This document shows, piece by piece, positions 21,996 to 48,539 of a DNA stretch of 64,000 nucleotides. The translations under genes and the position numbers were made by a program. Source of the stretch: Ischnura elegans (Eukaryota > Arthropoda > Insecta > Odonata > Coenagrionidae); contig NC_060258.1 of the NCBI RefSeq assembly GCF_921293095.1, forward strand, positions 930,001-994,000. The letters run 5' to 3'. Every line of letters starts with the position of its first letter. Positions within the stretch are counted from its first letter, which is position 1. Under the pieces are notes generated by a model. The model was not told the origin of the DNA and did not search any database. It was given only the letters and a program-made list of their open reading frames with translations.

Positions 21996-22069
21996 TTTCT
22001 AGGTACAAATTTCGACTGAAAAGTGTGATTCGTTCTCCTGAGGGTGTGGAAAAAAATGAATATGTAATA
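21996..22069 (-). other. 5S rDNA spacer immediately downstream of the 5S fragment
   Basis: Reading the minus strand away from the 5S end, a T-run, then AGGAGAACGAAT and TCGAAATTT match the sequence after the other 5S 3' end at 26920-26985. Shared spacer shows that these are true pieces of a 5S repeat, not isolated retroposed 5S copies. Confidence 0.7.
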
Positions 22070-22169
22070 CCAACAGCACCCGGTGTTCCCAGGAGGTCTC
22101 CCATCCAAGTACTATCCGGGCGCGACGTTGCTTAACTTCGGTGATCGGACGAGATCGAACCGGTTTATT
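22070..22169 (-). rRNA. 5S rRNA gene fragment (nt 22 to 3' end)
   Basis: Minus strand from 22169 reads AATAAACCGG, then TCGTCCGATCACCGAAG, GATAGTACTTGGATGGGAG and ends GGGTGCTGTTGG. This is arthropod 5S rRNA lacking its first 21 nt. It carries a 4-nt insertion (GATC) after CCGGTTC and several substitutions, so it is a pseudogene fragment. It marks the 3' side of a LINE insertion. Confidence 0.9.
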
Positions 22170-22194
22170 GTTTCAAATATTTTTTTATTGGTAT
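22170..22194 (-). mobile_element. Minute LINE-tail insertion followed by retained ATACCA duplication
   Basis: Minus strand order is ATACCA (22194-22189), then the 19-nt ATAAAAAAATATTTGAAAC (22188-22170), then 5S from nt 22. The 19-mer resembles the last bases of element T1 (26800-26819), and ATACCA is 5S nt 11-16. This is best read as a T2 insertion duplicating ATACCA followed by an extremely 5'-truncated T1-type insertion at the second site, replacing 5S nt 17-21. Confidence 0.6.
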
Positions 22195-22492
22195 ATTTTT
22201 TTCTAAAAAAATTTACAAAGGTATTTACAATGGGTTTGGTTTTCATCATTAATTTAACAGTAGTTGTCACATACGTTGGATTTGTAATGTGTAGTTTACG
22301 AAAACAAAAAAGAAAAAATAGGTATATGTCATTACATCAATTTTTTTATTATAATACAGTACACTTATCTAAATAAATATAAATATTGTTTTTATTTGGT
22401 ACAGACAATAAGTTAGTCAAGTGAAAACCATACAATGAAAAAAAGAGAAAATAAACCAGAATTTTTAAAATCAAAAGTACAGAACAAATAAT

Positions 22493-22558
22493 GTTGCATG
22501 TGAGAATCGAACTTATTATCTACATCTCAATGGCCGCATGCGGTAACCACTAAGCCGT
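22493..22558 (-). repeat. tRNA-like sequence in the T2 3' UTR
   Basis: The minus strand shows A-box GGCTTAGTGG then B-box AGTTCGATTCTC, about 45 nt apart, with a palindromic CCGCATGCGG just after the A box. It is preceded by AATAAAAAAA (22569-22560). It differs in sequence from the cassettes in T1 and T3 but occupies the same place, downstream of ORF2 and a few hundred bases before the 5S junction. Confidence 0.55.
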
Positions 22559-23044
22559 TTTTTTATTCAAGGTATTTATTATTTCAAGTTTTTAACAAGT
22601 ACATAAATTCATGAGAAACTGATATTGCTTACATAAAAAAGAAAGGAGAATTGCATATAAAAAACAATTCAAAATCTGAAGGCGTTAATAATTGCTTGTT
22701 TTTGTTTTTATAAGCCCTGAAGGAGCAAAAAGAAAGGAAAGGAATGAGCACAATAATAAGCAAAAAAATGAGCATAGAAAAATAATCTTTCATATGGGAT
22801 TGCAGTCTAAAAATACAGTTCATAGGAATTTAGTGGTAAGTAGATCACTATTTAATGAGTTCAAGTTTAGCACTAGGAATGTTTTTGTTTTTTTTCCAGT
22901 TTGGGTATAACACTACCCAGGATCATGATCAACAATGTCAATAAAAACATTTTTCAGAAATGAACGAGTTCGGCGGTGCGCCAGATAGTGGTGCACACAT
23001 CATAAAACGTAATAGTCCTTCTCCCACTGGCTTTTTATGCAGAG

Positions 23045-24916
23045 TTAAGAAAAAAAATTAGAGATGATGGCAGAAAGAGTATTTGTTTTAAAAGAAGGAA
23101 ATAATTTAAAATTTAGAGCCAGAAGTTTGAAATCATCAAGCCGGGCACAACTAGAAAAGGAGTCTAAATTAAAAAAATATCTCTGGTAGCCTTCCATGCC
23201 CTCGGACCATCCCCACAGCCAAGGACATGGTGGGGCATATCGTCCATGTGGTAACACACAGGACAGAGGGGAGTGTCAGGCAGTCCCATCATATGTAAAA
23301 TTACCCTCGTGTGCTGAAGGTCCGCAATCACGCCAAACATATTACTAGCGACACAGTCCTCCACCCTGCATGCCGCCCAGTTCCTCCACGAGTTGGCGGA
23401 GGGTGGCGCAGAACCCCCCTCCCCTCCCCTTAAAACCCGTTTGTACAAGCGCTTGACTGTGAATGCCTGTGAAGCGGTCCGCTGACTTGGAGCCAGCTCG
23501 CCGCCGGAAGCATAAAAAACTTTAAAATCCGCATCAACACGGGAGTTAAAATATCCCAGCATGCAGCATAAAACTCGTAGGAGAGCCCGTCCGAGCCGGG
23601 TGACTTACCCTTGGGGAGGGAGCGGAGGACTAACTCAACCTCCTCCCCTCGGATCGCGCTTTCGAGCTCGAGAGATTCATCATGCAGGAGCGCTGGTAGG
23701 ACGGGGATTGGTGGGCAGTGTGCATCACTCCAAGCAGAGTAGCGGTCGTAAATGCCTTTAAAGGGTCCCTCCGCCTCGCTTAAGAGGCGATCCATGTTTG
23801 CAGTGGAATGTCTATTTTTTATTTTTATCACTCGCTTGAGTTCGGAGAGGGACAGCGGGCCCCACCCCTCCTTGTCTATCGCCCGCTGCCATACGCGAGG
23901 AGAGTAGCGAGCGATTTCGTGGGATAGAATGATGGCTTTTAATTCTCGCACCATGGCGTAATAATTGTCAGGCCGGCGAGGCAAGGTAATAATTTCCTCC
24001 AAAGCCGACCTATAGAATTTGATTGTGGCCTCTTTTCGTTTTCTCCACTGCCTGGACATTTTTTTCAAGAGGAGGGTAGCCTTGGGCTTGAAAAAATTCT
24101 CCCACCATATGATTACATCCTTGTTTGGGTCGAAGGAGTCAGCCAGCTGAACTACCTTCGCCCTAATTAACTCCGTGTACTCAGGCATTTCTAAGAGGCG
24201 AGTATCTTAACGCCAGAAAGGGGTTGTATTAGGAGTGACCGGGGTGGGGGAGGGTAGGGGTAAGGAAAGGTCTAAGATTAGGGCACAGTGGTCGGAGAGG
24301 GACATTGGCAATTGATAAGGGGTTCGAGGAAGGGATTTAAGGGCTCCGGATAAAAAGATGAAATCAATTCTCGAGCGCGATGTTGGGCCCGTGCGCGTAA
24401 ATGGCACGGTTACGAAGTTATAATTAAAAAAAACTATCTGTTAAGCACACGGAATCTATTAAAATTTCAAAAGCCCGGCTCGGAGGTTCGACACGAGCGC
24501 GGGAAGATTGACGATATTCGCCGCGATATGTACAGTTAAAATCCCCCGCGAGAATGGCTTTCCCTGTAAAAACATGTAAATATGGCAACAGTGTTTCATT
24601 TAAAAACAAATCTCTGTCCACCCTCCGCTCAGACGTTTACCACATGGATATCAAATACCGTTAGGGAGGTTATTCTCCCTGAGGGGTGGAATCTGATGTT
24701 GCTTACTGGAAGCCCGGATTTAATTAAGACGGTTGCACCTCGGCCCGGCCCATCGCAATTGGCGAAGGACCGGTAGAGGGGGTCAGGCCAAACGATCCCC
24801 TCTAATGACTCTTGTAGACATGCAATATCAATGTTTTGTGTTTTAATGAATTTCGAAATTAAATTTATCTTAAGGGGATTGTGAGTCCCCGCAATATTTA
24901 GAGAAAGGATTTTCAT
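23045..24916 (-). pseudogene. T2 ORF2: endonuclease and remnant RT, RT core deleted
   Basis: ATG at 24916 opens MKILSLNIAGTHNPLK, the apurinic-endonuclease start, with ACLQES. After frame breaks come ILAGDFNCTYRGEY (about 24555), SRIDFIFLSG (about 24375) and SLSDHCALILDL (about 24300). The linker and RT N-terminal part (24188-23570) is open and includes KGKSPGSDGLSYEFYAACW, the L1-type finger motif. Near 23510-23560 the sequence jumps to the C-terminal region, so the catalytic palm is missing. The C terminus keeps a CPVC...HHVLGC zinc knuckle (about 23270-23210) and KLFPSFKTN, also seen in T3. It cannot be active. Confidence 0.8.
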
Positions 24917-24946
24917 TACAGGCCAGTGGGTAGAAGTACTTGCGTA

Positions 24947-25585
24947 ACGCTCCTTTCACACAGCACGGTTTCGCCCGTACGGGAGAAAACCGTACGGGAC
25001 ACATTCCAATAGTGGCGCAAAGAATCAGATAAGAGCTTTCACACTGATACGGCGACGGTTTTTCGCCGTGATACAGCTGCCGTCTGCCACTAGAACCATA
25101 CGGTCGCCGTCCCCGTCGAACTGCGTAGTAGCGCATTGGAGTAAACAGCCCCTTTCACACAGCCCGGTTTCAGTCGTACGGTTGGTTCGCTAGCGAGTGC
25201 ACGCTGCTCAGTTCACTGTGGAAAAATGTATGAAATTGACGCTCAGGTGCTCATATCTTTGGTAGAATCTAAGCCTGTGTTGTGGGACAAGAGTCTTACA
25301 GTATTTAAATATAGAAATGCGACGTGAAATGGTTGGAGTTTGTTTGGCGCCGAAACCTGATTTTGATGTCATCGATAGATAATAATTAATTTAAAAAAAT
25401 GCTTGTTCTCGATCCATTTTAGCTAAGCAGTACACACAGACAGGTGCACATCCGACTCAAGCCAATGCTCAACTGAAGTCTCTCACCGTACGACGGGACC
25501 GTGCTGTGTGAAAACTACTTTTAAACCACTTACAACCGTACGGTTTTCCCCCGTACGGGCGAAACCGTGCTGTGTGAAAGGAGCA
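24947..25585. mobile_element. PIF/Harbinger-type MITE with 50-bp inverted repeats
   Basis: Terminal inverted repeats of about 50 bp start GCTCCTTTCACACAGCACGG and run through CCCGTACGGG and AAACCGTACGG, with about two mismatches. The element is flanked by TAA on both sides (24944-24946 and 25586-25588), the 3-bp TWA-type target duplication of PIF/Harbinger elements. A second, degenerate start (CCCCTTTCACACAGCCCGG, about 25150) lies inside, followed by a MADF-domain remnant. There is no transposase, so it moved using another copy's enzymes. It is inserted in T2 where ORF1 meets ORF2. Confidence 0.85.
25226..25327 (+). pseudogene. MADF/Myb-like domain remnant inside the MITE
   Basis: A 33-codon frame starts MYEIDAQVLISLVESKPVLW and continues DKSLTVFKYRNAT before TGA. 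The pattern L-(I/L)-x-L-V-E-x-(K/R)-P-x-L-W-D is the start of the MADF domain, the DNA-binding protein that many PIF/Harbinger elements encode beside the DDE nuclease. Only the first third of the domain remains. This supports descent of the MITE from an autonomous Harbinger element by internal deletion. Confidence 0.65.
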
Positions 25586-25588
25586 TAA

Positions 25589-26236
25589 GGGGTGAATTTT
25601 GTTGATAGCGCACGTCGCTGTGCTTTTGTTCCGCCTTTTTTTTCGTCTACCCGACCCGTTCGGGATCGGCTGCGTCGCCTGCGGCCACCCGTCGACTGCT
25701 CTTCGTTGCTTTCACCTTTGCTCACGGCCCGCTCCGGCTCGTTATCGCTTCCACTTAGGCTCCCGCAGGGAGGGACAGCCCCTCGAGACGGCGAGTGTGA
25801 GGGGGAAGTCGTCACCTGCCGGTCTTCTGGCTCCGCCGTAGTAAGGGAGGGGGATGGGATGGGGGCGCTCTCGCTAACATGCGAGAGGTCGGAGAGGGAG
25901 TTGTGAGGAGAAAGGGAGATAGGGGAAGTGGAGGGGGAAGTGGAAGTGACAAGGCTAATAGTAATTGCCTCGTCAGGGGTGAAAGGGTCTTCAATTGTTT
26001 CTCCCTCGTGCTCCGCTGCATAATCCTCCATGTTCTCCGAGGTGGGCTCCGCACCACTGGTGTCAATTGACGCTTCCTTGGGGGGCTTTGGGTCGCCCTC
26101 GTCATCGGACTGTGGATCAGGAGACGCGATGACCCAAACAGACGCGAAAACATGTCGCTCCGCATGGTCGGGGGCCGGCACTCGTTGAGGGAGGGGGGGG
26201 GGGGAAATTCCATGCATGCAGAGTATGGAACTTTTG
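25589..26236 (-). pseudogene. T2 ORF1, C-terminal part
   Basis: A minus-strand frame is rich in Ser, Pro, Glu and Asp and ends in a basic block, RRRRSRSRTGRVDEKK. That is the same layout as the C-terminal half of T1 ORF1 (acidic, then RRRRKRNSGRRGKRKN). The N-terminal half with the CCHC knuckle is at 28550-29306, inverted. Removing the MITE with one TAA leaves the ORF1 frame open into the ORF2 ATG. Poly-G at 26191-26200 lies near the inversion breakpoint. Confidence 0.6.
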
Positions 26237-26819
26237 GAGCACCGTTTTGGAGCCTAGAGGAGAAAATCAGAAAGAGTAATTACATAGGCCGAATTACAGA
26301 TTACATCAACAACATACCATACACAGACATAAGACATGAATTGAAACAGGAGTTTATACCATTATTTTAAAACATCCTTTAAGCACTGCATCCCTTTCTC
26401 GAAGGGAAATTTCAATTTTAACAAATATTTTAAATGTGTGACTGTGTTTGAGTTAAATGCTGAATATGTTAATTTATTTTTCACGATTTTTGTATATTTG
26501 TTTGTAATCTCGTAATATGTGAATTTGTGAAAAGTTTTGTTGCTCGAGTTACTATCCCGAATATAAGAGCAGTGCTAGCCTAGTGGATCGACGTCCGGCT
26601 GGTGAGGGGAGAGTTTGCTGTGTTCGGCCGGACGTTCGAATCCCCAGGCCTGTGGGAAAGGAAAAAAAAAGAAAGAATATTGTTTTTGGATGATTGCAAA
26701 TCTAGTGGTATCATATGTCCTTTATGTCTTGTTTATAAAAAGAAGTCTAATTTCAAATGTTAAAAAAAATTTTGTCTGTAATGTTTTGTGGAAAAGAACA
26801 ATAAAAAAAATTTTGAATC
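26237..26819 (+). mobile_element. T1 3' end (ORF2 C terminus and 3' UTR), inverted
   Basis: Plus-strand codons from 26249 encode WSLEEKIRKSNYIGRITDYI and end with HELKQEFIPLF at a stop near 26370. This is followed by a 3' UTR, a tRNA-like cassette (26567-26656) and an A-rich end abutting 5S at 26820. T1 on the minus strand lacks exactly these parts and breaks at 29316, so this is its displaced 3' end. The segment with the C-terminal CCHC knuckle, present in T3 and T5, is missing and was probably lost at the breakpoint. Confidence 0.7.
26567..26656 (+). repeat. tRNA-like cassette in the T1 3' UTR
   Basis: A-box TAGCCTAGTGG is followed by a 9-bp perfect stem (ACGTCCGGC at 26591-26599, GCCGGACGT at 26627-26635) and then B-box GTTCGAATCCCC. 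The cassette is clearly related to two tandem copies in the T3 3' UTR. The extended stem replaces a normal anticodon arm, so it is a tRNA-like structure, not a tRNA gene. Confidence 0.75.
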
Positions 26820-26919
26820 AATACACCGGTTCTCGTCCGATCACCGAAGTTAAGCAACGTCGGGCCCGGATAGTACTTGGATGGGTGCCCGCCTGGGAAC
26901 ACCGGGTGCTGTTAGTATT
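26820..26919 (+). rRNA. 5S rRNA gene fragment (nt 22 to 3' end)
   Basis: The sequence starts AATACACCGGTTCTCGTCCG and continues through GATCACCGAAGTTAAGCA, GTACTTGGATGGG to CCGGGTGCTGTTAG. It lacks 5S nt 1-21. The internal control region is largely preserved. AATAC (26820-26824) is also the last 5 nt of the 5S remnant on the other side of T1 (34514-34529), the target-site duplication of T1. It is inverted relative to the other 5S pieces because it lies in the inverted block. Confidence 0.92.
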
Positions 26920-28107
26920 ACTTTTTAATTTTTTTTCCATACACTAAGGAGAACGAATTACACTGTTCCGTCGAAATTTATGCATAGAAGGGTTTGCATA
27001 ACATTTTGTTTCACGCACAATGGAATTATTCACATTTCCTTCCAATGAAACGATTTCAAGTCGCACCGTTCACTATTCTACAATTCATTACCTGTTTTGG
27101 TGTTGAGAGAGAAAAATGAAATTACAAAAAATTATGAATACAGCGAAAAAGATTTTTTTCCACGAACGATGGAGACGATTTTGCACACATTGAATTGTAA
27201 GCAAATATTTCTGTATCAGGTGTGCTGCATTCGTAATTAATCTATTTCACCAGAAACTAGCCTTAACACCGTCAAGCCTGGATAATGTAGATGGAGAAAT
27301 TGGAACGCCAAAGATTACCTTCCTCAAAATGATTCCCTTAGGAGAATACTCCTTTTCCTATCCGCATTACATAATCTCCTATTGCAGACTAATTTTTCAA
27401 TAAATGAATGCATACGTTGTGTTATATCGATCATGAAACAGTCGAACAACAACAGGAGACATTTACCAAGCGATTTTAGCTGGAATAAATCGCCATTATA
27501 CCAACAAGCACACCGTTACTATAGACATTTTTCAGAAACTTTTTTTCAAAGATGGCATTGGGAGAGAGATAAATTACATCTAGAAAAATGTATCAATATG
27601 CGGAAAAACATTTTTTTCCACGAACAATATAAACGATACTTTACACATTTCTTAACCAACAAATAGCATAACACCGTCAAGCCCGGAAAATGTAGATGAA
27701 GAAATTGGAACGCCAAGAATAATCTTTCTAATAATTATTCCCTTAGAAGAATAGTCCTTTTCCTATCCGCATTACATAATCTCCTATTGCCTACTAATGT
27801 CTTTCAATAAATAAATCTTCTGTTGCATAGGTCATGAAACAGTCAAACAGCAGACATTTACCTAGCGATTAAAGCTGAAATAAATCGTCGTTATACCAAC
27901 AAGCACACCGTTACTACAGACATTTTTCATAAACTCATTTTCAAAGATGGACTACAAGAAATAAAGGAATTGAGAATTGCTTAATGGACTACTGCTTGAA
28001 ACTGGTAACTATTCAACAGATATTAATGCAAACACACTTGCTAAGAAACCAGATCTTCCGTCGATTCTCAAGTCATGATAACTTCTCAAGGATTCGGTAA
28101 TGTACTC
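26920..28107 (+). other. 5S rDNA intergenic spacer with internal duplication
   Basis: About 1.19 kb lie between a 5S 3' end and the next 5S 5' end in the same orientation, as in a tandem 5S array. The spacer contains two diverged units, about 27140-27560 and 27600-27960. They share CACCGTCAAGCC (27267 and 27672, 405 bp apart), GAAATTGGAACGCCAA, TATCCGCATTACATAATCTC and ACCAACAAGCACACCGTTAC. No coding capacity is seen. Confidence 0.75.
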
Positions 28108-28119
28108 GCCAACGGCCAT
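28108..28119 (+). rRNA. 5S rRNA gene fragment (nt 1-12)
   Basis: GCCAACGGCCAT is the exact start of the 5S gene, also found as part of the 16-nt start at 40212-40197. It follows the 5S spacer and directly precedes the T4 5' UTR. Twelve bases would be weak alone. The call rests on position at the end of the spacer and at the start of a LINE. Confidence 0.7.
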
Positions 28120-29306
28120 CCGAACAGTAAGGACGTGTTTCTGAGTGCTCCGATAGACCGAACCCGAGATAAGACTCCTGGCCGAGAGGCCTTCCTCGGC
28201 CGTCCGCACGAGGCGACGATTGCCCGTCCCGGCGATCGTCTTTTGTTCCCGCTTTTGACGATCCTGAAACTTCTCAGAAGCAGCCATGTGATTTTGTGTT
28301 TTTTTTCCACTGACCCACGGGTTACAGTTTAGCCATTGTGAAATAGTTTTTGGAAGCTTTCTTTTTAGTTATCCTACGAGTTGAGTTTTAGTTTACATTT
28401 TTGTCTTTGGCGAGTAGCGGAGTGTGCCCGCCCCTGCCTGCGCGCAGTCTTGTGCCGGGCAGGTTGTCATCAGTGATTATTTTTTCTTTCCCCCCTTTTT
28501 TGGCGATTCCCCCCCCCCCCCCCTATGTTTCTCCTCTATTGGTGCTACGATGGAAATCAATCGCACTAACACGATCGTCATAACGACGGAAGAAACGTCA
28601 TGATTTGCCACGCCGCTGGAGGCGCACGTTTTCGTAAAGAAGACGTTGGGCCGCGCGGTGGACGATGTCGACGGGATCCAAATCGGCTACAACCGAAGAA
28701 ATATCTACCTGAAATTGAAAAATGAAAATATTATGAAGAAAGTTCCGGAGACGAAGACTAAAACCCTGCCATTTCCCACCCAGGAGGGGAAATTTATGAC
28801 GGCTACCATTGATTCTACTGACGACGCCCCAGTCTTAGTCAAGATCATGTGCCTGCCGCTCGAGATGCCTATTGCGGTGGTCATCGACGAGCTCAGGCGT
28901 TTTGGTGAGATTAAGTAATACTGGTAAGGGGTGTGGAGGGGGAAGGACCTCCTCGGCGGCACCAGAACCGGCACCTTCTTTGCGAAGGTGGCGATCAAGG
29001 CGAATATCCCCTCATACCTTAATTTCAGAGGCCAAAGGGCCCTGATACTTTATGAGGGGCAGAAGAAGACATGTGCCCGGTGCCAGTAGGAGGGCCACAT
29101 TCGTAAGAATTGCCCGCGGAATGATTTTGGAAGACGTTTTGCGGACGTGGCTGCCCGTTCCCCCTCTGCACCCGCTGACGATGAAGAAATAACGGCCGAC
29201 ATTGCCCAGCAGCTGTCCACGATGGAGGAACCATCAAAGCCCACCCCCCCGAATCCGAAGAGACCCCCCTCCCCGGCTGAACTTAATCCCGAGGGCATCG
29301 GTGCTC
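28120..29306 (+). mobile_element. Element T4: 5' part of a 5S-inserted Tx1-like LINE (5' half of T2), inverted
   Basis: The 5' end resembles that of T3 (both share GGACGTGTTT close to the 5S junction), then a GC-rich 5' UTR with a C14-like run near 28510, then ORF1 from ATG 28550. It stops at GGTGCTCCAAAACGG (29300-29314). The minus strand of T2 begins with GGTGCTCCAAAA at 26244-26233 and carries the complementary C-terminal half of ORF1. T4 and T2 are therefore read as one element cut by the inversion. Confidence 0.7.
28550..29306 (+). pseudogene. T4 ORF1, N-terminal half with CCHC knuckle
   Basis: One frame runs from ATG 28550 to 29306 interrupted only by nonsense codons near 28601, 28916, 28925 and 29087. 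It contains GYNRRNIYLKLKNENIMKK and VLVKIMCLPLEMPIAVVI, an RRM-like pair of segments matching T1 and T3 ORF1. It then has NIPSYLNFRGQRALILYEGQ and the knuckle CARCQ...EGHIRKNC (about 29075-29115). ORF1 proteins of this type bind element RNA. All four stops can be explained by C-to-T changes (CGA to TGA, CAA to TAA, CAG to TAG). Confidence 0.75.
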
Positions 29307-29315
29307 CAAAACGGT

Positions 29316-31991
29316 CCAATCCTGTTTTGTCACGTTGTTTCTTGATCTCTGCCTTGACATTTTTCAAATGTGGGTTCCTACTACCATGATCTATTGCGCT
29401 ATCCAGTATGTTGATTCTTGTTCTATTTCCTGTGTTGTATATTTTGCATAAGTTATTTAGATATATGATTTTAGCTTTTGTGCTGGCATCCTCTAGTCTT
29501 AGGCCTCCTTTTTCATATGGCATGTAAAGTCTAGGTCTTGGTGCTTTTATTATGAAGCCTTTCCAGATGAAGTTATTTGTGGTTTTTATTATTGTTGCGT
29601 GGTGCTTATTTGGGAGTGGCCAAGTGGTAGCATAGAACCAGAGAATAGGGTATATCTGCTGGTTTACGATTTTCACTCTCGCTGCAATCGGGAGCTGTTC
29701 AAAGTGTAGGCTTCCACACTGCCACTTTACTATGTTGGTTGCTACATTCCAGTTTTTGTTAATGGTTGCGTTTATGTCTTTTTCCCAGATCATGCCTAAA
29801 ATTTTTACAGAGTTTGCGATGGTCCAATTGTGAGTGTTCTCAATTTGTTTTATAGGTAGGAGTTTTGATTTTGTTCTATTAATCTTGATGCCTATTGTTT
29901 GGTATTTCTTTAAGATTTCGTTTGTTGTTTGTAATTCTTCCTCGGATTTTGTGAGTATTGTGATGTCATCTGCATAAACAATTGTGGAGCAGAGTTCTCC
30001 TCTTCTGTATGTTCCAATTTTTTTTTTGTTGAATTCTCTGATTATAGGGTCCAGTGCTATTGCATATAGTAGCATTGACAGTGGGCATCCTTGCCGCACT
30101 GAGTTTGTAACTGTGAATTTTTTGGAAAAGGTATCACGGTATCGGATCTGCGCGGAGATGTTTGCGTATATGTTCTTCACTGACTTTATTAGTGTGGTGG
30201 GCAGGTTCATTTTCTCCATGTTATGTAGAATCCATTCAACACGTATGTTATCGAAGGCTTTTTCTAGATCTATTGCAAGGATACCTGGTCTAGTATCCGT
30301 GACTCCTGGGGCTGAGATCAGTATATCCCTGAGGGTTGTGGTTGCTTCTGTTGCTTTCCGGTTTTTGATTCCAGCATATTGATTATGGTGTAGGAGCTGC
30401 GTGGTTAGATGTTCTATTTTGTTTTTTAATATGTGTGCGTATATTTTATAATCTGTGTTCAAGAGTGATATAGGTCTATAATCTTGTACTTTTTTCGGGT
30501 TTCTTATCTTAGGTATTAAAGTTATTATTGCAGTCTTCATGCTTTCTGTTGGGCCGTTCTCCTGTAGGTGGTTTAATATCTTGGTGAGGGCTGGTTTGAG
30601 TTCTTTCCAGAATGTGAGGTAAAACTCATAAGGGATGCCGTCCGGGCCAGGTGATCTTCCTTTCTTCAGTTTATCCCTTACGTCTTCTATATCTTGTTCG
30701 GTTATTTTGTGGTTGTATTGGTCTTTGATTTCCGGGGTTAGTTTTTCGTGTATAGTGTCGGACGGTATGTAACTATTACTCCATAGATTGTATTTATTAT
30801 ATTGTTGTTTAAAATGTTCTTCCGCTGCGTCGATGAAATCTGCTGGGCTCATCTCTCTCCCGTCTTTGAGGGTGGGTTGGGTGAGTTGTTTTATCTCTAT
30901 GCTCTTCTTTAACGTGGCGAGGGTTATAGGTCCCCAGTCGTCCTTTTCAATTTCTTTCTGCCATCCCCTAGCTGCATATTTTTTTATCTCTAGTTCCAGT
31001 ATTTTTTGTTTTAGGTTTTTTATTGTGTCATATTCCTTGCTTCCGTCATTGTTGATTTTGTCTGTTAGTATTTCCCGGTAGAAATTTATTGTGTTTGTTT
31101 CTGCTTCGTACATCTCTTTGTTGTCTTCTGCAAGAGTTTGGTGATGCTGGGTTTGAAAGTTTTTTCCCACCAGATGGCCGTATCACCGTCTACTGCTGGG
31201 TGGTTGAGGAGCTTCAAAATTTGGCTGCTTATTTCCTTCCGGGCTTCTGGTGATTTGAGTATCCTATCATCCATCCTCCATGTTCTTGGTCTCTTCTTCA
31301 CGGTGGCTGAGGTTTGGTTATTTAAGGTGAGAATTAGAGCTGAGTGGTCGGATGTGGACATCGGGTGTGTTTGTAGGTTTAAAATGTTCTGTTTTAGCTG
31401 CTTTGAGGTAAATATATAGTCTATCCTGTTTTTAGATGTATGACCTGCTCTTGTGTATCCGGGGTTGTCTCCGTTTATATGTATTGCGGTGTCAATTGCC
31501 TGTGTACTGTTTATTAGGGTTTTAAGAGGTTGAGAAATTTGGTACCTGATCTGTTCTGTGTTTGCACTGCTATCGTTTTTTCTGTAGATTGCGTTTAGGT
31601 CTCCTCCCAAAATCGCTTTTTTGTGAAAGCATTGCATATAAGGAGTTAAAGTTTCCATGAAGAAGATCTCCCTTTCTTTTCGTTTTTCGCATCCTGATGG
31701 TGCGTAGGCGTTTATTATAGTTATGTCTTTGTGCATGATGCTCAGGATCCTTCCGGATTCATGATATCTTATATTCGTTCCTGGTAGTGAGTGTTTCATT
31801 AAGATGCAAATTCCCAAAGAGCCATCTCCAAAATTTTCGTAAGATTTATAACAGGGATCAGTCCAGACAGCGTCCCTATGTATTTCTTGTAATAATATTA
31901 CGTCTGTTTGTAGTGTTTTAAATGTGTTTATAACTATGTTTATTTTTGCGGGATTTATAATACCCGCTGTGTTAAATGTTACGATTTTCAT
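29316..31991 (-). pseudogene. T1 ORF2: endonuclease and reverse transcriptase, one frameshift
   Basis: ATG at 31991 opens MKIVTFNTAGIINPAK. Endonuclease motifs follow: LLQEIH, INAYAPSG, ILGGDLNAIY, RIDYIFTS and STSDHSALIL. A single frameshift near 31130 moves to the RT frame: NTINFYREIL, KKGRSPGPDGIPYEFYLTFW, DYRPISLLNTDYKIYA, LAIDLEKAFDNI, RQGCPLSMLLYAIALDP and the catalytic YADD in IVYADDITILTKS. Then come the thumb and ATNNFIWKGF, KGGLRLED. The frame reaches KTGLDRFG, where T3 has its CCHC knuckle, and breaks at the inversion. RQGCPLS plus a C-terminal CCHC domain in relatives is the L1/Tx1 pattern. The protein nicks target DNA and primes reverse transcription there. Confidence 0.88.
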
Positions 31992-32115
31992 GAATGTTTT
32001 GACGTGATATAAAATTACCATCATATCGTGAAAAAAAGAAAACCAATAAGAGACAAAAAGAACATACAAAATTTAGAAAGAAAATTGAGCGTAAAAAACA
32101 CATCTTTGAAAGTCC

Positions 32116-32195
32116 TTGCCTGGGTTCGAACCTGCGTTTTCCCACAGGTCTTGGCAGTAGCCCGCGACACATCCCCTGGGCTAACTGGGCGCATG
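32116..32195 (-). repeat. tRNA-like unit 2 in the T1 inter-ORF region
   Basis: The minus strand has A-box-like TTAGCCCAGGGGATG and B-box GCAGGTTCGAACC, with a stem CCTGTG/CGCAGG just before the B box. It is nearly identical to the unit 250 bp upstream. The D-arm loop is too long for a tRNA, so it is tRNA-like only. Confidence 0.6.
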
Positions 32196-32365
32196 AGGCA
32201 AACACTGTATTTTTGGTCTTAAAACTTCCTCTTACTTTTTCGTGTTCATTTGCTTTTAAATTGAGCTCGTAATAGGAACACCTTATGGTCATAATATCAA
32301 TAAGAGACAAAGGGAAGATACAAAATTTAGAAAGAGAATTGAACGTAAAAAACACATCTTTGATA

Positions 32366-32445
32366 GTCCTTGCCTGGGTTCGAACCTGCGTTTTCCATCA
32401 GGTTTTGGCAGTAGCCCGCGACACATCCCCTGGGCTAACTGGGCG
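32366..32445 (-). repeat. tRNA-like unit 1 in the T1 inter-ORF region
   Basis: Same structure as 32116-32195 with few changes (CCTGATGG in place of CCTGTGGG). The 250-bp spacing and matching flanks, such as TAATAGGAACACCTTAT near 32265 and 32525, show tandem duplication. Confidence 0.6.
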
Positions 32446-32974
32446 CATGAGGCAAACACTATATTTTTGGTCTTAAAACTCCCTCTTACTTTTTCGTGTT
32501 CCTTTGTTTTTAAATTGAACACGTAATAGGAACACCTTATAGTCATTAACATCGAACATATAGATAAAACCCGATTTGCATTTTCTATTTTAAACATTAG
32601 TGCATAGTTGTATCTTATCAAAACACATTCTCGTTTCTTGCCTTTGCTTCGCCATTGTGATGTGTCAGCCTGCTCTGTTCCGGCCGCTCGGCATTCCTCG
32701 CACCGAAGTGGGTCACGTAACGGGATTTCTCCGACTCTGAGGCTAAAAATAGCCTCCTGCTGCTCGATGCCTCGGCCTCTGCAGCACGGGCTGCCAACCT
32801 TGGTGTGTAATATCTCAGCTCTTCTCGATTCACTGGAATTCATGCTGCCATCTCCGCTCCCCTGGCAAAACTGCTTCTTTTGTCCTGTAATAAAAATTGA
32901 GAGATTGATTTCAGTACAGCGTACCTTTCCTATTCCCCCCCACCCCCCCGAATTTATGTGTGATTTTCTGTTTT

Positions 32975-34291
32975 TCATTTCTGTTGTGCCTTGTGTTTTT
33001 TCGTTTTATTTGGCTCTCTCTTTTCGGAATCAGTGTTCTGTTTAAGAAATGCTTTTTTAAATGTTTCTGTTTCACTTTGTAGTTTTGTCAGTTTATGTAA
33101 ACTCATCTGCCCCCTTCTTGTTGCTCCTGGTTCTTCTTCTTCTTCTGTTTCTTCGTCAGTCTCCCTCCCCATGGTGAAAGTAAAGCCTTTCGGCACGGGG
33201 AATGAGGTCTTGGGAACGGTCCATCCCTCTTTCGTCTCGGTCTCTTCTTCCTTGTCTTCTTCTTCTTCTATAATTATTTCCTCGACCTCCATTTCAGCAT
33301 TTGATGTGCTTGACGAAGAGTCGTCTATGTTCCTCTCTCCCTCTTCTGTGCCTCCTCCCGACCCTGTCGGCGACGTTGAATTTTTTCTTTTGCCTCGCCT
33401 TCCGCTGTTTCTTTTTCGTCTTCTTCGTGTTGTGTTATTGTCCGACTCCATATTCACTGCTTCCGGAGTAGCTCCTGCATCCTCTGTTTTTTCACTCCCC
33501 CCCGAAACTTCTTCGATGTCACTCTTGTCTACTTTCTTCTCAGTCCCTTGTTGCTCTTCCACCGCCGGGATGTTTCCCCCCTTGGTTTCTTCTTCCTGCG
33601 TGTTCTCACTTTGCTCCCGCACCGCTCTCTCCACCTCTTCTTCCATTTGAGTCTGTTCTTTACCTATGTCACTCACTTCCATTGGATCTTCCCCCCTCAC
33701 CCTCTCGGCGTATGTAGAGTTGGTGCCCACACTTAGTATAAGTGGGCAGTTTATCCTCAAATGTGATGTCTCCCCACACCTGGAACACGTCGGCTTTTGC
33801 CCGTAATATAATATTGCTGCTCTGTATCTAGCCACCTGTAGATACGACGGGATGTCTTTTGTCAGCTCCATTTTCACGCTGCGGGCACCCGTGTAAGTGC
33901 CCGCTAACGTTTTGGGACCAGCCCAAGTGTTTAATTGGTAGTCGATTATCTTTCCGTAAGGCGCAAGTGCCTTCAACACCTCCTCCCTCGGTACCTCGAT
34001 ATTCAGCAGGTGAACTTTAACAATTGTCACTCTTCTACTCGCCGATGTAATCTTAACCTCCCTGTTGCCCATCTTCCTTAACTCGCCTGCGGCGAGTATT
34101 TCTTCCATTTTTTCCTCCGTCTTCAATTTCAAAAAAACCGTTCTTCTTTTGTTCGTTATTACTACCGCTACTGCCTCTTCGGATCGAACCCCGAGCTCTG
34201 ACATGATGAAATCATGGATCTCTAGGGGCTGTGGTGCTTCAAAATTCTTCTCAAACTCCAAACATAGGGTGTTAACCTTTGGGTATTCCAT
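32975..34291 (-). CDS. T1 ORF1 protein, intact (RRM-like, CCHC, acidic/basic tail)
   Basis: The start is ATG 34291 in GGTTAACCATGG, matching AATTAACCATGC of T3 ORF1, although an in-frame GTG lies 18 nt upstream. About 438 residues. The N terminus is MEYPKVNTLCLEFEKNFEAP. RRM-like segments follow (KRRTVFLKLKTEEKMEE, VTIVKVHLLNIEVPREEV). A single zinc knuckle CSRCGETSHLRINC lies near residue 185. Then come a long Glu/Ser-rich stretch, a basic block RRRRKRNSGRRGKRKN, and a second acidic stretch ending KTKKHKAQQK. This is the expected layout of a Tx1-type RNA-binding ORF1 protein acting in the ribonucleoprotein particle. No frameshift or stop is seen. Confidence 0.85.
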   Translation of the reverse strand: MEYPKVNTLCLEFEKNFEAPQPLEIHDFIMSELGVRSEEAVAVVITNKRRTVFLKLKTEEKMEEILAAGELRKMGNREVKITSASRRVTIVKVHLLNIEVPREEVLKALAPYGKIIDYQLNTWAGPKTLAGTYTGARSVKMELTKDIPSYLQVARYRAAILYYGQKPTCSRCGETSHLRINCPLILSVGTNSTYAERVRGEDPMEVSDIGKEQTQMEEEVERAVREQSENTQEEETKGGNIPAVEEQQGTEKKVDKSDIEEVSGGSEKTEDAGATPEAVNMESDNNTTRRRRKRNSGRRGKRKNSTSPTGSGGGTEEGERNIDDSSSSTSNAEMEVEEIIIEEEEDKEEETETKEGWTVPKTSFPVPKGFTFTMGRETDEETEEEEEPGATRRGQMSLHKLTKLQSETETFKKAFLKQNTDSEKREPNKTKKHKAQQK

Positions 34292-34513
34292 GGTTAACCC
34301 CTGTTGCACTAGAGTTTAACTTGCTAAAACACACTTGCGTGTGTCACACGTTTTTAGTCGCGTCACAAGGTCGCAAAACTGTCCGAGCCCGCACTCAGCA
34401 AGGCTCCCGGCGATCGCAGGGCGCGATCGCCGGGGCTTGGAAACCGGTCTTCGAAATCCACGAGAAACAAAACACGCTCGGGAGCTCTCTCTCTACACGT
34501 CCTCTCGCCTCGC

Positions 34514-34529
34514 GTATTCAACGTGGTAT
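34514..34529 (-). rRNA. 5S rRNA gene fragment (nt 11-26) between T3 and T1
   Basis: The minus strand reads ATACCACGTTGAATAC, 5S nt 11-26. Its first six bases repeat the end of the 5S remnant 5' of T3 (40202-40197), and its last five repeat the start of the remnant 3' of T1 (26820-26824). One 16-nt piece therefore carries one target duplication of each of two insertions made at different sites in the same 5S gene. Confidence 0.85.
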
Positions 34530-34696
34530 TTTTTTCAAATCATTTATTTCAATCAAACTCAAAAATACATACTTCAGAAAAATTGAACCTTTCATCATTT
34601 ACACACAATACACAAAAACCACCAAATAAGAAAAAATTTCTTTTTCCATTATTTTCCACAGAATTTTCCCTCTTTTATTTTTTATATAAAACGTTT

Positions 34697-34788
34697 GGAG
34701 GTCTGGGGATTCGAACGTCCGGCCACACACACTGCTCACCTCTTCTCCTCAGCCGAACGCCGATCCACCAGGCTACCACAGCTCTTGC
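34697..34788 (-). repeat. tRNA-like cassette 2 in the T3 3' UTR
   Basis: A-box TAGCCTGGTGGATCGGC, then a stem GTTCGGC/GCCGGAC enclosing about 28 nt, then B-box GTTCGAATCCCCAG. It is followed by a 165-nt AT-rich tail ending in the A-run at the 5S junction. It is closely related to the T1 cassette. Confidence 0.75.
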
Positions 34789-34978
34789 ATTTACAATAGG
34801 AAAAAACTGACAAAATGCTTTTCAAGATCCATTTGGACATTTAAAAAAAGTTATTTTCCAATTTTAACATTTATTACTTACAAAGAATAGAATTGTAGCA
34901 TGTATTATTTCCACCTTGTAATTAAGTATCACATTTATCGCATTTCACTGAGATAATCTTCACGATTAAATTTTTATC

Positions 34979-35067
34979 CTGGGGACCTGGGGATTCGAAC
35001 ACCAGCCCAATTCACTCTCCCCTACTCACCAGTCGGGCGCCGATCCACCAGGCTACCCAGGGCGACA
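34979..35067 (-). repeat. tRNA-like cassette 1 in the T3 3' UTR
   Basis: Same order of elements: CCTGGG and CCCAGG can pair as an acceptor-like stem, A-box TAGCCTGGTGGATCGGC, GCCC/GGGC stem, B-box GTGTTCGAATCCCC. Cassette 2 lies 280 bp further on, in tandem. The tails differ in sequence, so it is the cassette and not the tail that is conserved. Confidence 0.75.
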
Positions 35068-35339
35068 CAAACACATCACGTAACCACCCATTTCATTATT
35101 CTCACTCTATTGTGGTCTCTTCGTCCGTGACAAAACACTTTTCTAACCACCAACCACAATTTCAACAGACATCAGGTATACAGGAAAAACACTTACGATT
35201 ATACTAAATTAAAATAAATAATTAATTTCATAAATACCCAACACTGAACTGTATGGACAGATATTTATAGATCAAATATTATATTCAGAGAGATACAAAC
35301 GATAATACAATAAAATTCCTTTTCCCAAACAAAACACAA

Positions 35340-38300
35340 TTAACATTGGTAAAATTGGATCAGGAAATCCCTTGCATCTTTGTTCAGTGCTTTAAATTCA
35401 TCCTCTTTTACATTCTTATTCACTACAACATTCCATTTCAAAATTTCATAACAATATCTTGCAATAATAAAAACCATTATCTCTGTCTTAAACGATGGAA
35501 ACAATAGGAAATCTAGTTTTATCAGTCTGATACCATCTATATCATTTTCACCAAATAAGTTTAAAGTTCTGAACGTTTTTTTTATTTTGTCCCATTCATT
35601 TTTTATCTTAGGGCATGTTATAAATTTATGTCTTAGGTCCTCAAGGGTATTGCAGTTTTCACAATTCCCTGATCTGTCCAAACCTATTTTTTGAAGTTTT
35701 TCTTTTGTAGCTACCAACTCATTTATCACATTGAAAATTGCCAGTTTGTAATCTATTGGCATAGAAACTTTTTTTAGATTACCCCACGATTTTTTTGGCT
35801 ATTTTATTATTTCTTTCTCCACCATACTGTTTTCCTTCTTTTTCCTCCATTAAGAGATTATATACATATTTTGTTACAACAATGTTATGCATTTCTACTT
35901 TGGGGATAAGTTCTTTTAGACTCTTTACGTAGGATTTAAAATTGTCAGTTATTTCCATTGTATTTAAAGCACTCTTTAGGAGAGTCTTTCTGTAGTCCTT
36001 TGATTTTTCCATAGCCTTTATTGTGGCCGTGTAAAAGAGGGCCTTAACTTTACTTTGAAAGTCTATTAGTCCTAGGCCACCCTCTCCCCATTTTCTGATC
36101 GCCTGTTCTTTCCTTATTTTGAAAATATAATCTTTCCAAACAAAAAAGTTAATATACTTGACAATCTTCGCCGCTATTCTATTTGGTGGTGGTAGTATAT
36201 GCGCTACATACCACATCTTACTTAGGATTGTTGAGTTCATAAATCTTACTCTGTACACAAGGTTTAAGTGCCTGTTATGGGATTTAACAGTCTCCCACCA
36301 TTCTGCTTACCAACAGTTCCCAGTTTTTAGTCAATGTTTCTACAATGTCTTTATTCCATTGTATTCCTAAAATTTTGGTTGTTAATTTCTCTACCCATAT
36401 GTCCGGAAGAAGACCGTCTTCGTTTTTCAAGTTCAGATAATAAGTTTTATTCTTATTAATAGACATACCACTGATACTACAGAATAAGTTTATTACTTCT
36501 TCTACAGTTCTCTGTTGCTGTTTATCGGTTATCATGACTGTCACGTCATCTGCAAACGCAACAGCTGATATACTATCATTGCCAATTTTTAAACCCACTC
36601 CTGCCCGGTCTAACATGTCCAACAACGGGTTTAGCTGCAGACAAAACAAAAGCATAGAGAGAGGGCATCCCTGTCTAAGGGACTTTCCCAATTTTATCCA
36701 ATCCGTAAACTCATGGATTCCTACTTTAATCTTAACATGTGGCTCATTATAAAAGACTTTAATTGTGTCAATTAGTTCTTCAGGGAAACCCATTATTTCC
36801 ATTACCCTAAAAAGAAATTCCAAATTTACCTTATCAAAAGCCTTTTCAAAATCGATAGCCAGGAGTTGGAGGTTTGCTACATTTAGGCTACCTTTCATGA
36901 CAATTAGATCTCTTATTATTTGTGTCGCATTGTTTATGTTCTCTCCATTCTTACATATACCAAATTGAAGGGGGTGCAAAACATCAGCAGCCACCGTCAT
37001 TATATTTTTTTAATTATTTTTACAAAGATATTGTATTCATTATTTAAAATTGTCAAAGGCCTATACTCCTGAATTTTTGTCGGATTAGCTGTCTTAGGAA
37101 TGAGGACAATTCTCCCTTCTCTTTGTGAAATTGTCATTTTCCTCTGTGTTAAATAGCATAAAAAACAATCAAATAATTCCTTGCTAACCGTCTCCCTAAA
37201 GGTCAGGTAAAATTCCGCCCCTAGGCCGTCGGTCCCAGCGGATGTTCCTTTCTTTAAGTCTATAATTGCATCCATCATATCTTCTATTCTATAGTTTTTT
37301 CAGTCTCTCTTTAGCTTCTTCTGTAAGTTTATTATGAACGTAAGGGTCTTCATTTGTAACTACATAACCTTGTGTCAAATTTGATTTAAAATAATCATGA
37401 ACTGACTTTTTAATTTCATCTGCTTCTGAGGTCCTATTTATGCCATCTTTACATTCTGTTAACTTGAGAGCTGTTTCGTTAGCTTTCCTTTTCGCTTTTT
37501 CTAACTGATATAATGAACTTATTTCTCCATCTACGTAGTCGTCACGATTTTTAATAGTTAGAAATTCAGCCAGTTCTTTCTCTAGTTTGAGTATATGTTT
37601 ATTCAACCCATAAATTATCTCTATGTCGGAATTGGAGTGCACACAGTCAAGCAAGGCATCTCTATAGAAATTAATTTTTCTTTTTGAATTCGAGATTTTC
37701 TTTTTCCCTTCCCACACCAGATACTCTTTTGATTTAATCTTTAAGAGTTCCCATTTATTCCCTGGATTTAAGTGCTTATATTTTTCACACCACTCAACCC
37801 ATTTATTTTTAAAGTTCCTAACAATCATCTGATCCAAAAAAACGTTATTATTTACCCTGTTACTACCTTTCCTCAAATTTGTTGGGGGTACTAAGTTAGT
37901 ATTAAATTCAATGATTAAAATATTGTGATCACTCATTGTCACCGGAAAGGTTCTCTGCTTAATTATTTGAAGACCTGAGTTTTTTTAGTATAAATTCGGT
38001 CAATTCTAGTAGCATAATATTTTTTAACAAGGGTATATTTAATTTTTTGGTCCTCAGAGACTAGGTCATTAACATCTATCGCATCAAATATGTTTAATAG
38101 GTTCTTTAAAACCTTATTAATTGGGTACGTAACCCTATCTTTGTTATTTAAACTATCTTTGGGGTCGACTATAGCATTAAAATCACCCCCCAGGAAACTC
38201 CTCTCCTGGAAGTTATTCATGTAATGAGGTAAATCTTCATTATAAAAGCTTACTCTTTCTGCCGCCAGCCTACTGCCAGCTGGAGCATATACATTAATTA

Positions 38301-38577
38301 TATTAAACCCTCCAAAATTGACAACAAGAATTCGACCATCAGGACTATGACATTCACTTTTAACACATAATTTATTTTTATATATAATACCTGTTCCACG
38401 TTTTCCCATGGAATTAATTATCACCTTTGCATCCTTCCTTTCCCAAAATTCAGAAGGCATCACTTCTTGTAGTAATAACACATCCAAATCATTACTTCTA
38501 AAACATAAAAACACTTCGTCAATTTTCTTTTTTGCGGTTATTCCGCCAATATTAAGGGTAGCTATTTTTAACAACAT
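35340..38577 (-). pseudogene. T3 ORF2: endonuclease and reverse transcriptase, several frameshifts
   Basis: ATG 38577 opens MLLKIATLNIGGITAKKK. Endonuclease motifs are LLLQEV, INVYAPAG, FLGGDFNAIV, RIDRIYTK, and MSDHNILIIEF after a frame break near 37950. RT motifs in successive frames are KKGTSAGTDGLGAEFYLTF, EYRPLTILNNEYN, LAIDFEKAFDKV, RQGCPLSMLLFCLQLNP and FADD in AVAFADDVTVM. The C terminus keeps a zinc knuckle CENCNTLEDLRHKFITC (about 35660-35610) and ends FLIQFYQC. Frame breaks lie near 37950, 37283, 37000, 36270 and 35770. All domains are present, so it was once complete. Confidence 0.85.
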
Positions 38578-38596
38578 GATTGGTTAATTAAGTGTT

Positions 38597-39962
38597 ACTC
38601 TTTTTCTGAATAGCACTAGTCACTTTCGCTTTTCTCTCCTTCTTGAAGTACTCTAACGAGGTGGACGCTTCCATCCCGTGTTCCTCCTCTCGCATCATCA
38701 TTTTTTTTGCTTCGTCTTTTTCGCTTTTCCCGTGTCTCCTTCACTTATATTCCCACTCCCACCCGTATCTAATGCATTAAGTCCCTTTTCCGCCTGACTA
38801 GACAAGGTGTTACTCCTCTTTTCCCTTGCTCCGCCAGCCGTGACGGCCGCAGGCAGGGATAACCAGTTTCCTCCCACCACTTCCAAATCCCCGTCGATTT
38901 GTTCCGTCCAGTCCATACTGCCCCTCAAACCGTCGTCCAACTCACCAGTCTGACTCTCTTCCCCTCCCCCAAGCTCTCCCCCAACACTTGTCCCACGATA
39001 GACTGGTTTTCACTTTCATTGAGATTCCCCGACACTTGTTTACTTTCCCATATGCATGTATTTTCAACCGTCGAGCCGGCCCCACTTTTTTCCCCATCTG
39101 AACCATTATCCGAAGCACATGTTTTCTGTTCGTTCCTAGTCCTCCCAATACGTTGTCCCCTTCCGCCTCGCCTCGCCTTTTTCTTCCCCTCATCTCCGCT
39201 GCACTCACTCTCCTTTGGAGACCCCTCCCCCTGACCCACTTCCATTTTCTCTTTATTACTTGAATTTACCACCTCTTCTTCATTTTCACCTTCCCCCATT
39301 CGTTTTAATTCTACGTGACTATCCTCTAAGTCAATAAGTTCTACCACCGTTACTGACTTTACAGCGTCACTATACCCCCTCTTAATTGGAGCAAGAATAT
39401 TTGGGCAATTTACCCTAAGATGTTCTGTGCTACCACACTTCGAGTACGTCACCACCTGGCCGTCATAGTGGATTATGGCCCTCTCCCCAGCGATGTACAA
39501 GTAACTGGGGATATTTTTTTCAACATACATCTTCACTGTCCTATTCCCATTTCTCACCTTGATCCTGTGATTCCCTCCCCACCTCAGCTCAAGGTAAGAT
39601 ACAATCTTCCCGTAGTTACTTAATACTTCACGTACCTCTGTTTCGGTAACCTCAAAGGGGAGGAGACAAATCCTCACATGGGTGGCACTTCTTGAGGCAG
39701 GCTCAATATTTACCACCCCCCTCCTGTTCCTCGTTGAAGGGAAGGGTAGATCCCCTTCGTGGTCCATCAGAATCTTCTGCATTATCTCCGCAGTTCGGGC
39801 TTTTATGAAAGCTGTCCTCCGGAAGGGTCCAAATTGTATCCCCAGCAAGTCCTCCTCCTTTACTTTGATGATCTCCTCCAAGAAGGTCATTAGCTCGTAA
39901 CTCGTTACATCGGGTACAGTGTTAAAGTTCACCTTTAACGTGTTGATTCTTTCTTTTGGCAT
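38597..39962 (-). pseudogene. T3 ORF1: RRM-like and degenerate CCHC protein
   Basis: ATG 39962 opens MPKERINTLKVNFNTVPDVT. RRM-like segments RRTAFIKARTAEIMQKIL and SATHVRICLLPFEVTETEV are followed by YSKCGSTEHLRVNC. This is the CCHC site with its first Cys changed to Tyr, so zinc binding is probably lost. The long acidic tail and basic block (KKKARRGGRGQRIGRTR) match T1. The main frame closes near 38925, but the rest of the protein continues in other frames (ending KKTKQKK near 38698 and IQKKSNT near 38597), so about two frameshifts separate it from an intact ORF1. Confidence 0.8.
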
Positions 39963-40196
39963 GGTTAATTCCCGGCTGTTCGCGTTTCCGCGCTCAGCGT
40001 GCCAAAAATCACTTCTAAAATAAGAAAAATAAGTTTTAGACTCACGATCGCTCGCGAAAACAAATTACGCCCGAGTTTACCCCGAGCAAACCGAGCCCGG
40101 GCGAATGCCGAGGCAAACGCCGGGCAGAGAAACTCTCTCTCGCCGTATGAGTAAACCAAAAACGATCGGTCTGAGCGCTCCGCAAACACGTCCGTC

Positions 40197-40212
40197 TGGT
40201 ATGGCCGTTGGC
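40197..40212 (-). rRNA. 5S rRNA gene fragment (nt 1-16) at the T3 5' end
   Basis: The minus strand reads GCCAACGGCCATACCA, the start of 5S, immediately followed by the T3 5' end. The sequence upstream (AAAGACTATAATATCTTC, 40230-40213) has a TATA-like word near the expected 5S start. The last six bases are the ATACCA target duplication. Confidence 0.85.
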
Positions 40213-40793
40213 GAAGATATTATAGTCTTTTGAAGAATCTTATACTCATTCGGTGATTAGAGTCGATAGTTTACTATCTGACTTTGTAACAATTTGGATT
40301 TAAATTTCATACAGGAATGAAATGTAGCATCAACGGCGCATAAAAAATGTCCATTTCAAAGGTATCAGTTTCGGTAATGGATCGGTAACGGTAAGTTTTT
40401 AGAAATGTTGCAGTTTCGGAAAGGAAGGCAGCTGAAGCGCGGACTTCCCGTGACAAAGTAAAGGATTTTTAAGATGGATTTCAACGTGAAGCCAACGTGG
40501 AATATGGAGTGCAACTGAAAATGGTGGAATAACGGAGAAAGGGTTTGACGAAAGAGCAACTGTCCGACCAGTTTGCTGAGTGACATAGTGCCTTTGGTTG
40601 CAAATGGGATCTTACAACGAAATAACGTTAAGGAACGTCTCGTGCGGCTGCAATTAGACAAAGTTTCAACGCACTGGACGGATTGCCATGCAACGAGGAA
40701 TAGTGGAGATTCGCGTGTGTCGTTGCTGAAATCAGCATTTATTTGCGTTTTATCGACTAATTGTCGATTTTTTCGCAATGAACTGTCTTCTTT
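40213..40793. other. Unassigned DNA between the 5S start and the Jockey-like LINE
   Basis: This should be 5S upstream spacer on the minus strand, but beyond a weak similarity in the 30 bases next to 5S it does not visibly match the spacer at 26920-28107. The 137-codon frame on the minus strand (40365-40778) has no domain and is not supported. Confidence 0.4.
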
Positions 40794-48520: not shown

Positions 48521-48539
48521 TAAGCATAGAAATTGGTCA

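Follow-up and report, generated by a model that had tools for sequence, protein, structure and literature searches.

A degenerate 5S rDNA segment of Ischnura elegans, probably colonised by two sister clades of L1/Tx1-type LINEs at two neighbouring ATAC-containing sites

Organisation of the Locus

The DNA analysed here, a 64,000-nucleotide (nt) window of the genome of Ischnura elegans (contig NC_060258.1, positions 930,001 to 994,000 of the forward strand), contains a segment of 5S ribosomal DNA (rDNA) in which five pieces of the 5S gene lie at the boundaries of long interspersed nuclear elements (LINEs), at 40212-40197, 34529-34514, 28108-28119, 26820-26917 and 22169-22068, as had been reported in an initial annotation made from the sequence alone. 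The window is part of a 1.72-Gb assembly with 110 contigs, to which all assembly-wide counts refer (contigs and loci are cited by our own numbers, C and L). The elements concerned, T3, T1 and T2/T4, are arranged as follows, the latter two each being split by an inversion:

40213-40790 (-): 5S spacer, upstream of the 5S start bearing T3; resembles the upstream flanks of L065 (97%), L069 (95%) and L064 (82%)
40197-40212 (-): 5S nt 1-16, 5' boundary of T3
34530-40196 (-): LINE T3, 5667 nt, open reading frames (ORFs) broken into several frames
34514-34529 (-): 5S nt 11-26 between T3 tail and T1 head; contains ATACCA and AATAC
29303-34513 (-): LINE T1, 5' part (ORF1, endonuclease, reverse transcriptase)
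29299-29315: right inversion breakpoint
28120-29311 (+): LINE T2/T4, 5' part (T4); un-inverted copy at C13:1779701-1785555
28108-28119 (+): 5S nt 1-12, 5' boundary of T4
26918-28107 (+): 5S spacer
26820-26917 (+): 5S nt 22 to end (Rfam 62.5 bits)
26254-26819 (+): LINE T1, 3' part, set apart by the inversion; its tail pairs with T1 heads at seven other places
26232-26253: left inversion breakpoint, inverted match to 29299-29315
22170-26231 (-): LINE T2/T4, 3' part (T2), without the reverse transcriptase core
22068-22169 (-): 5S nt 22 to end with a 4-nt insertion (Rfam 53.3 bits)
21987-22067 (-): 5S spacer, interrupted by a LINE ORF1 fragment

T3 carries ATACCA, a 6-bp duplication of 5S nt 11-16, at both ends and is flanked by 5S nt 1-16 and nt 11-26, as first described; the 5' end of T1 and its 5-bp duplication AATAC, at 5S nt 22-26, had likewise been read correctly. 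T3 and T1 occupy a single 5S copy in series. The two long 5S pieces are 84% alike over 232 nt in an alignment that runs from LINE tail through 5S into spacer (about 80 nt), and because it extends through all of these, the pieces represent rDNA rather than part of a LINE consensus.

ORF2 of both T1 and T3 contains the Pfam domains Exo_endo_phos and RVT_1, i.e., the combination of an apurinic/apyrimidinic (APE)-type endonuclease and a LINE reverse transcriptase by which we recognised the L1/Tx1 group. For T1, to which the structural comparison was confined, the best matches in the PDB were LINE-1 ORF2p (ahead of R2) and the LTX endonuclease, a LINE-1 endonuclease chimera whose hairpin we take to be derived from Tx1; the T1 endonuclease scored 32.8 bits against LTX vs. 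28.0 bits against native LINE-1. Judged by these features, the T1 and T3 families are L1/Tx1-type LINEs. The tail of T3 showed no significant likeness to those of T1 and T2, and one scan of viral contigs yielded no relative of the T1 reverse transcriptase ORF.

Junctions Across the Genome

The first 200 nt of T1 and T3, used as head queries, matched 21 places (all fetched) and 36 places (30 fetched), respectively; such DNA searches give lower bounds on copy numbers, and joins at tails ending in A-runs are uncertain by the A residues shared. T1-type heads were preceded at 20 of 21 places by a stretch of 5S that stops at nt 26 and is 13 nt or more in length, and at the other one (L070) by AATAC only. 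The T1 tail (last 200 nt) joins 5S at nt 22 at all eight places where it was found, and seven of these tails pair with a T1 head, so that both ends lie within 5S. Among the 30 fetched T3 heads, nine were preceded by 16 nt of 5S ending at nt 16 and L047 by 8 nt; where the match covered the full 200 nt (L021-L026, 81-100%), 5S ended at nt 16 in all six cases. The T3 tail had two full matches (window and C17), both joined at nt 11, as is a T3 copy on C7; another three matches are limited to the first 82 nt of the query. Three T3 copies, the one in the window and those at L023/L090 and L022/L085, have 5S at either end, with junctions at nt 16 and nt 11. Twenty regions picked beside listed 5S 3' parts gave nine joins at nt 11, nine at nt 22 and two intact, diverged 5S genes. 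Rfam, run on 16 loci, reported 5S only, at L023 and L048. The genome-wide junctions thus agree with the proposal of the initial annotation that two related lineages of LINEs insert at 5S positions 11 nt apart and can lie one behind the other in a single copy of the gene, and the junction tables exclude a chance origin.

Some relatives of T3 and T4 (L028-L032, L034, L036-L038, L040; L122-L124, L128) have different flanks that likewise recur (...gggcgacag, followed by CCGTGTG or CCATACCG); many of these relatives are located close to large-contig ends, as though they had spread within subtelomeric blocks. A 25-nt TTAGG repeat matched a single internal place in C6 in the whole genome, and the chromosome ends do not show it.

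An ORF1 tree (49 pieces, 46 of them different, 299 columns; L024 gave no ORF1 hit, and L038, L042, L055 and L057 were excluded as near duplicates) contains one split (100/99) that separates the T1-type heads and T4 from the T3-type heads. All T1-type rows have junctions at nt 26, and the site-16 rows fall into three branches on the T3 side, where the rows without 5S flanks are also found. The T3 side further includes T8 (L004, L011), a family some 2.4 kb in size for which the portion read contains an ORF1 match and whose basal placement there is weakly fixed. T8 has 5S ending at nt 26 upstream and joins nt 22 downstream (its first two bases could be 5S nt 27-28). As a T3-side element uses nt 22, a clade is not bound to one site, and the site has changed at least once, in one direction or the other.

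5S Arrays and Serial Occupancy

The exact 5S start (nt 1-15) has 67 matches in the genome (reversed control: 0), and the 26-nt 3' part of 5S, with at most one mismatch, has 112, of which the 100 listed served as partners; starts without a listed partner within 15 kb were counted as unpaired. Among the matches listed, the 51 exact starts on small contigs (C27 and above) comprise 27 intact, 17 interrupted and 7 unpaired copies, and the 16 on C1-C19 comprise 1, 4 and 11, respectively. The 17 interruptions on small contigs have discrete lengths of 3.21 kb (5), 5.82-5.84 kb (10), 6.25 kb (1) and 2.41 kb (1), and the 3' junctions, which were read in 16 of them (all except C79:13474), lie without exception at nt 11 or nt 22.

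The array (C34, C46, C79, C82; L101, L102) consists of units of about 25-38 kb with two 5S types, which differ in their promoters and are spaced about 10 kb apart. The second type has GTACAATTCAC at nt 18-28; this had been considered as a third junction and was rejected, being the intact variant 5S gene of L101 and L102.

Serial occupancy recurs: 8 of the 21 T1 heads stand directly behind another LINE tail and 5S nt 11-26. The upstream tail is that of T3 in L051 (the window) and L066, one ending in TTGTGAATC in L052, L056, L061 and L062, and a third in L059 and L060. Since the copies on C13 and C17 are near duplicates, these represent no fewer than three independent cases of serial occupancy. 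L070 has a tail directly followed by AATAC and then by a T1-type head, so that two elements share one site.

Outside the arrays, two units on C7 with foreign flanks (T3 at 93303572 and T8 at 34492595) run from 5S +1 to ...GTATCACTTT, and no target duplication was seen around them by eye. They are either LINE hits on dispersed 5S copies, which would favour recognition of the sequence over the array, or whole transcripts pasted into the genome. A further dispersed repeat is represented by L005 (C8:65216994) and L008 (C10:100916672), which are 69% alike upstream, both contain 5S nt 1-41 and diverge at the same base.

Origin of the Junctions

The reading we favour, with a probability of roughly 0.85, is that a degenerate 5S rDNA segment was colonised by two sister L1/Tx1-type LINE clades at two neighbouring ATAC-containing sites and that part of it was later inverted. 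The top strand of 5S has ATAC at nt 11 and nt 23 and nowhere else (there is one further instance of its complement GTAT, at nt 117), and both duplications, ATACCA and AATAC, contain ATAC. By analogy with the L1/R1 model of target-primed insertion, the ORF2 endonuclease might recognise ATAC and first nick the bottom strand, at TGGTAT^GGCC (nt 10/11) or GTGTATT^CAACG (nt 21/22), whereupon the nicked 5S end would prime reverse transcription and nt 11-16 or nt 22-26 would be left duplicated. Insertion at either site spares the other, so that one 5S gene can hold both, and the order of insertion in the double copies is unreadable for the same reason. A later inversion would then have scrambled part of the window.

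Several observations weigh against this reading. Of the 30 fetched T3-head relatives, 20 show no 5S flank in the head-junction test, so that strict 5S specificity applies to close T3 copies only and not to the wider clade; target-specific insertion into a repeated sequence, a trait of Tx1-type elements, is accordingly seen in T1 and not in these relatives. The expectation of the initial annotation that other copies would sit at the same sites was thus borne out by T1 and by the six T3 heads matched over the full 200 nt and failed for those relatives and for T2 (see below). One of the seven T2 tails (L108) sits in non-5S DNA, and no 5S piece was found beside the LINE pieces T5/T6 at 47.0-50.8 kb of the window, which are the closest to T1 within it (51-53% protein in the longer matches, vs. 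36-59% between T2 and T1). T8 has room for ORF1 only, and its site may be set by the ORF2 of another element. The window T1 lacks an estimated 420 nt of ORF2 relative to T3, which leaves its un-inverted join imperfect. Finally, many copies are near duplicates (the C13/C17 pairs, the array T1 copies), and independent insertions are therefore fewer than copies.

This last point bears on the possibility that each site was hit only once, long ago, and that the copies are amplified rDNA units and segmental duplications whose recurrence is only apparent. The five 3.21-kb T1 copies of the array, alike in length and flanks, and the upstream tail common to L052, L056, L061 and L062 would fit such a history, which we nevertheless regard as improbable: the elements at site 22 (T1, T2/T4, T8 and the differing tails of L139 and L141-L146) are clearly distinct from one another, several tails and ORF1 branches use site 11, and the C7 copies lie outside arrays.

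It is less probable still that the LINEs carry a 5S-derived leader and that the flanking 5S is no sign of targeting. A few dispersed copies do have a 5S leader with foreign DNA upstream (L067, L071, L126, L043 and the two C7 units), but in the array copies 5S spacer lies upstream and the complementary part of 5S with its terminator follows downstream, which also contradicts the condition, named in the initial annotation, that the 5S pieces might belong to the LINE consensus. A 5S-headed retroposon resembling SINE3 (a short interspersed element family) was discarded as well; foreign DNA would then be expected upstream in most copies, and the array copies have spacer there.

Going beyond colonisation by two clades, one could tentatively picture the 5S gene as a docking site with two berths, divided and swapped among related LINEs, where a small change in the endonuclease would shift the nick between the two top-strand ATACs and where the short T8 of one clade could come to lie at the berth of the other. 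It may also be that the elements exploit the host 5S start, with whole 5S-LINE-5S transcripts (5S +1 to terminator) pasted elsewhere, as the two C7 units suggest. We consider this picture rather doubtful.

The Insertion Site of T2/T4

According to the initial annotation, T2/T4 was flanked by 5S nt 1-12 and ATACCA and hence belonged to site 11. This has to be revised. The last 200 nt of T2 were found at seven places, at six of which they join 5S at nt 22. ATACCA is present near the T2 3' end in four of the seven copies (window, L104-L106); L103 has TTTACC, L107 is without the stretch, and L108, outside 5S, has GAGACC at this spot in a tail that is otherwise alike and continues to its end. Because L103 and L107 vary and L108 runs through it outside 5S, the stretch is part of the T2 tail itself. 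At the other end, the 5S flank of T4 stops at nt 12 in the window, L109, L121 and L125 and between nt 12 and nt 14 in L110 and L111 (L112 is degraded), which together with the 3' join at nt 22 indicates a target deletion of about 9 bp. L067 (C1:157139334) and L126 (C19:29255600), both of them T1-like heads placed in foreign DNA, have no 5S beyond nt 13-26; the cut, at nt 12/13, falls just where the 5' junction of T2/T4 lies.

It is hardly credible that T2/T4 belongs to site 11 and that a tiny T1-type insertion lies behind it, for which ATACCA and then CGTTGAATAC would be the signature. In the four copies with the hexamer, the next 20 nt or so do resemble the T1 tail (the T1/T2 likeness downstream of ATACCA is matched by 9 of 2000 shuffles), and the likeness upstream is weaker over 60 nt, being equalled by 133 of 2000 shuffles. 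For the 30 nt upstream, however, the number is 13 of 2000, L108 carries the same tail through the ATACCA spot outside 5S, L107 ends alike without the hexamer, the join is at nt 22 in six of seven copies, and the ORF1 of T4 groups with T1.

Inversion and Other Features of the Window

The inversion (about 26254-29308) splits both T1 and T2/T4, with 13-nt inverted matches at its breakpoints (26232-26253 and 29299-29315). T4 (+) abuts T1 (-) at about 29308, and T2 (-) abuts the plus-strand T1 3' end at about 26254. When the segment is turned back, the frame from T4 to T2 is open across the join in one of two breakpoint alignments, with a stop codon in T4 upstream of it, and the T1 join requires a frame change. 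The un-inverted order is independently supported by a paralogue on C13 (1771944-1785555), in which the T1 head (1771944), T1 tail (1778418), T4 head (1779701) and T2 tail (1785555) lie on one strand; T1 heads and tails also pair at six places beyond C13. The inversion may be genomic or an assembly error, both being compatible with the data.

At the left edge of the rDNA segment, an ORF1 fragment related to T4 (21716-21978, minus strand, 68% at the DNA level) truncates the 5S spacer. A 636-bp insert in T2 (24949-25584), probably a non-autonomous DNA transposon, is bounded by terminal inverted repeats of 49 nt (98%). Between ORF1 and ORF2 of T1 lies a 254-nt tandem pair (32044-32546). The 3' regions of T1, T2 and T3 include modules that look tRNA-like by eye, with A- and B-box-like motifs (26565-26651, 34699-34786, 34986-35055 and 22500-22565), at which ARAGORN called no tRNA. 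In T5/T6 (47000-50830, plus strand) a C-terminal piece precedes the N-terminal one.

Relation to Known Systems and Significance

R1 and R2 are distant lineages with different endonucleases. Their fixed sites lie 60 bp apart in the 28S gene of Drosophila, where tandem R1 copies are separated by the duplication and R1 of the melanogaster group has a 9-bp target deletion (PMC2718515), like the deletion of about 9 bp at T2/T4. The likeness is that two LINE lineages each have a fixed site in a single rRNA gene; here, in contrast, the gene is 5S, and the lineages are sister clades whose sites are separated by 11 nt. Mutsu is a LINE of about 5.5 kb with two ORFs that is specific for zebrafish 5S rRNA genes (PMC3706591; PMC11202950) and shares the target with our elements but, going by this description, differs from the two sites and several families found here in one gene. 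The 5S arrays of Tribolium freemani are regularly interrupted by LINEs of about 5 kb, which are Jockey-like, and the results section of that study describes no precise 5S site (PMC11202950). Precise insertion into small multicopy RNA genes is also a property of Keno, whose target is U2 small nuclear RNA, and of Dada, which is a DNA transposon, with Dada-5S likewise in 5S genes (PMC4640811; PMC8869645). The titles and abstract openings searched, which cover few subscription papers, contained no report of two LINE sites in one 5S gene. Locati et al. 2017, going by its title, reportedly associates different sequence-specific LINEs with maternal and somatic 5S types and may hold a close parallel, as may Kojima and Fujiwara 2004.

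The phenomenon is already known in kind, from Mutsu in 5S and R1/R2 in 28S; new here are the coincidence of both sites with the gene's only two top-strand ATACs and the use of site 22 by the T3-side T8. With 17 of 51 recognisable starts on small contigs interrupted (among the matches listed), the 5S arrays of Ischnura elegans form a 5S counterpart of R1/R2 in 28S. Sister clades at sites sharing a 4-nt core address the question of how LINE endonucleases gain and change their target, and two clades with several families 11 nt apart, at least one of them at the other clade's site, provide naturally matched enzymes for mapping specificity.

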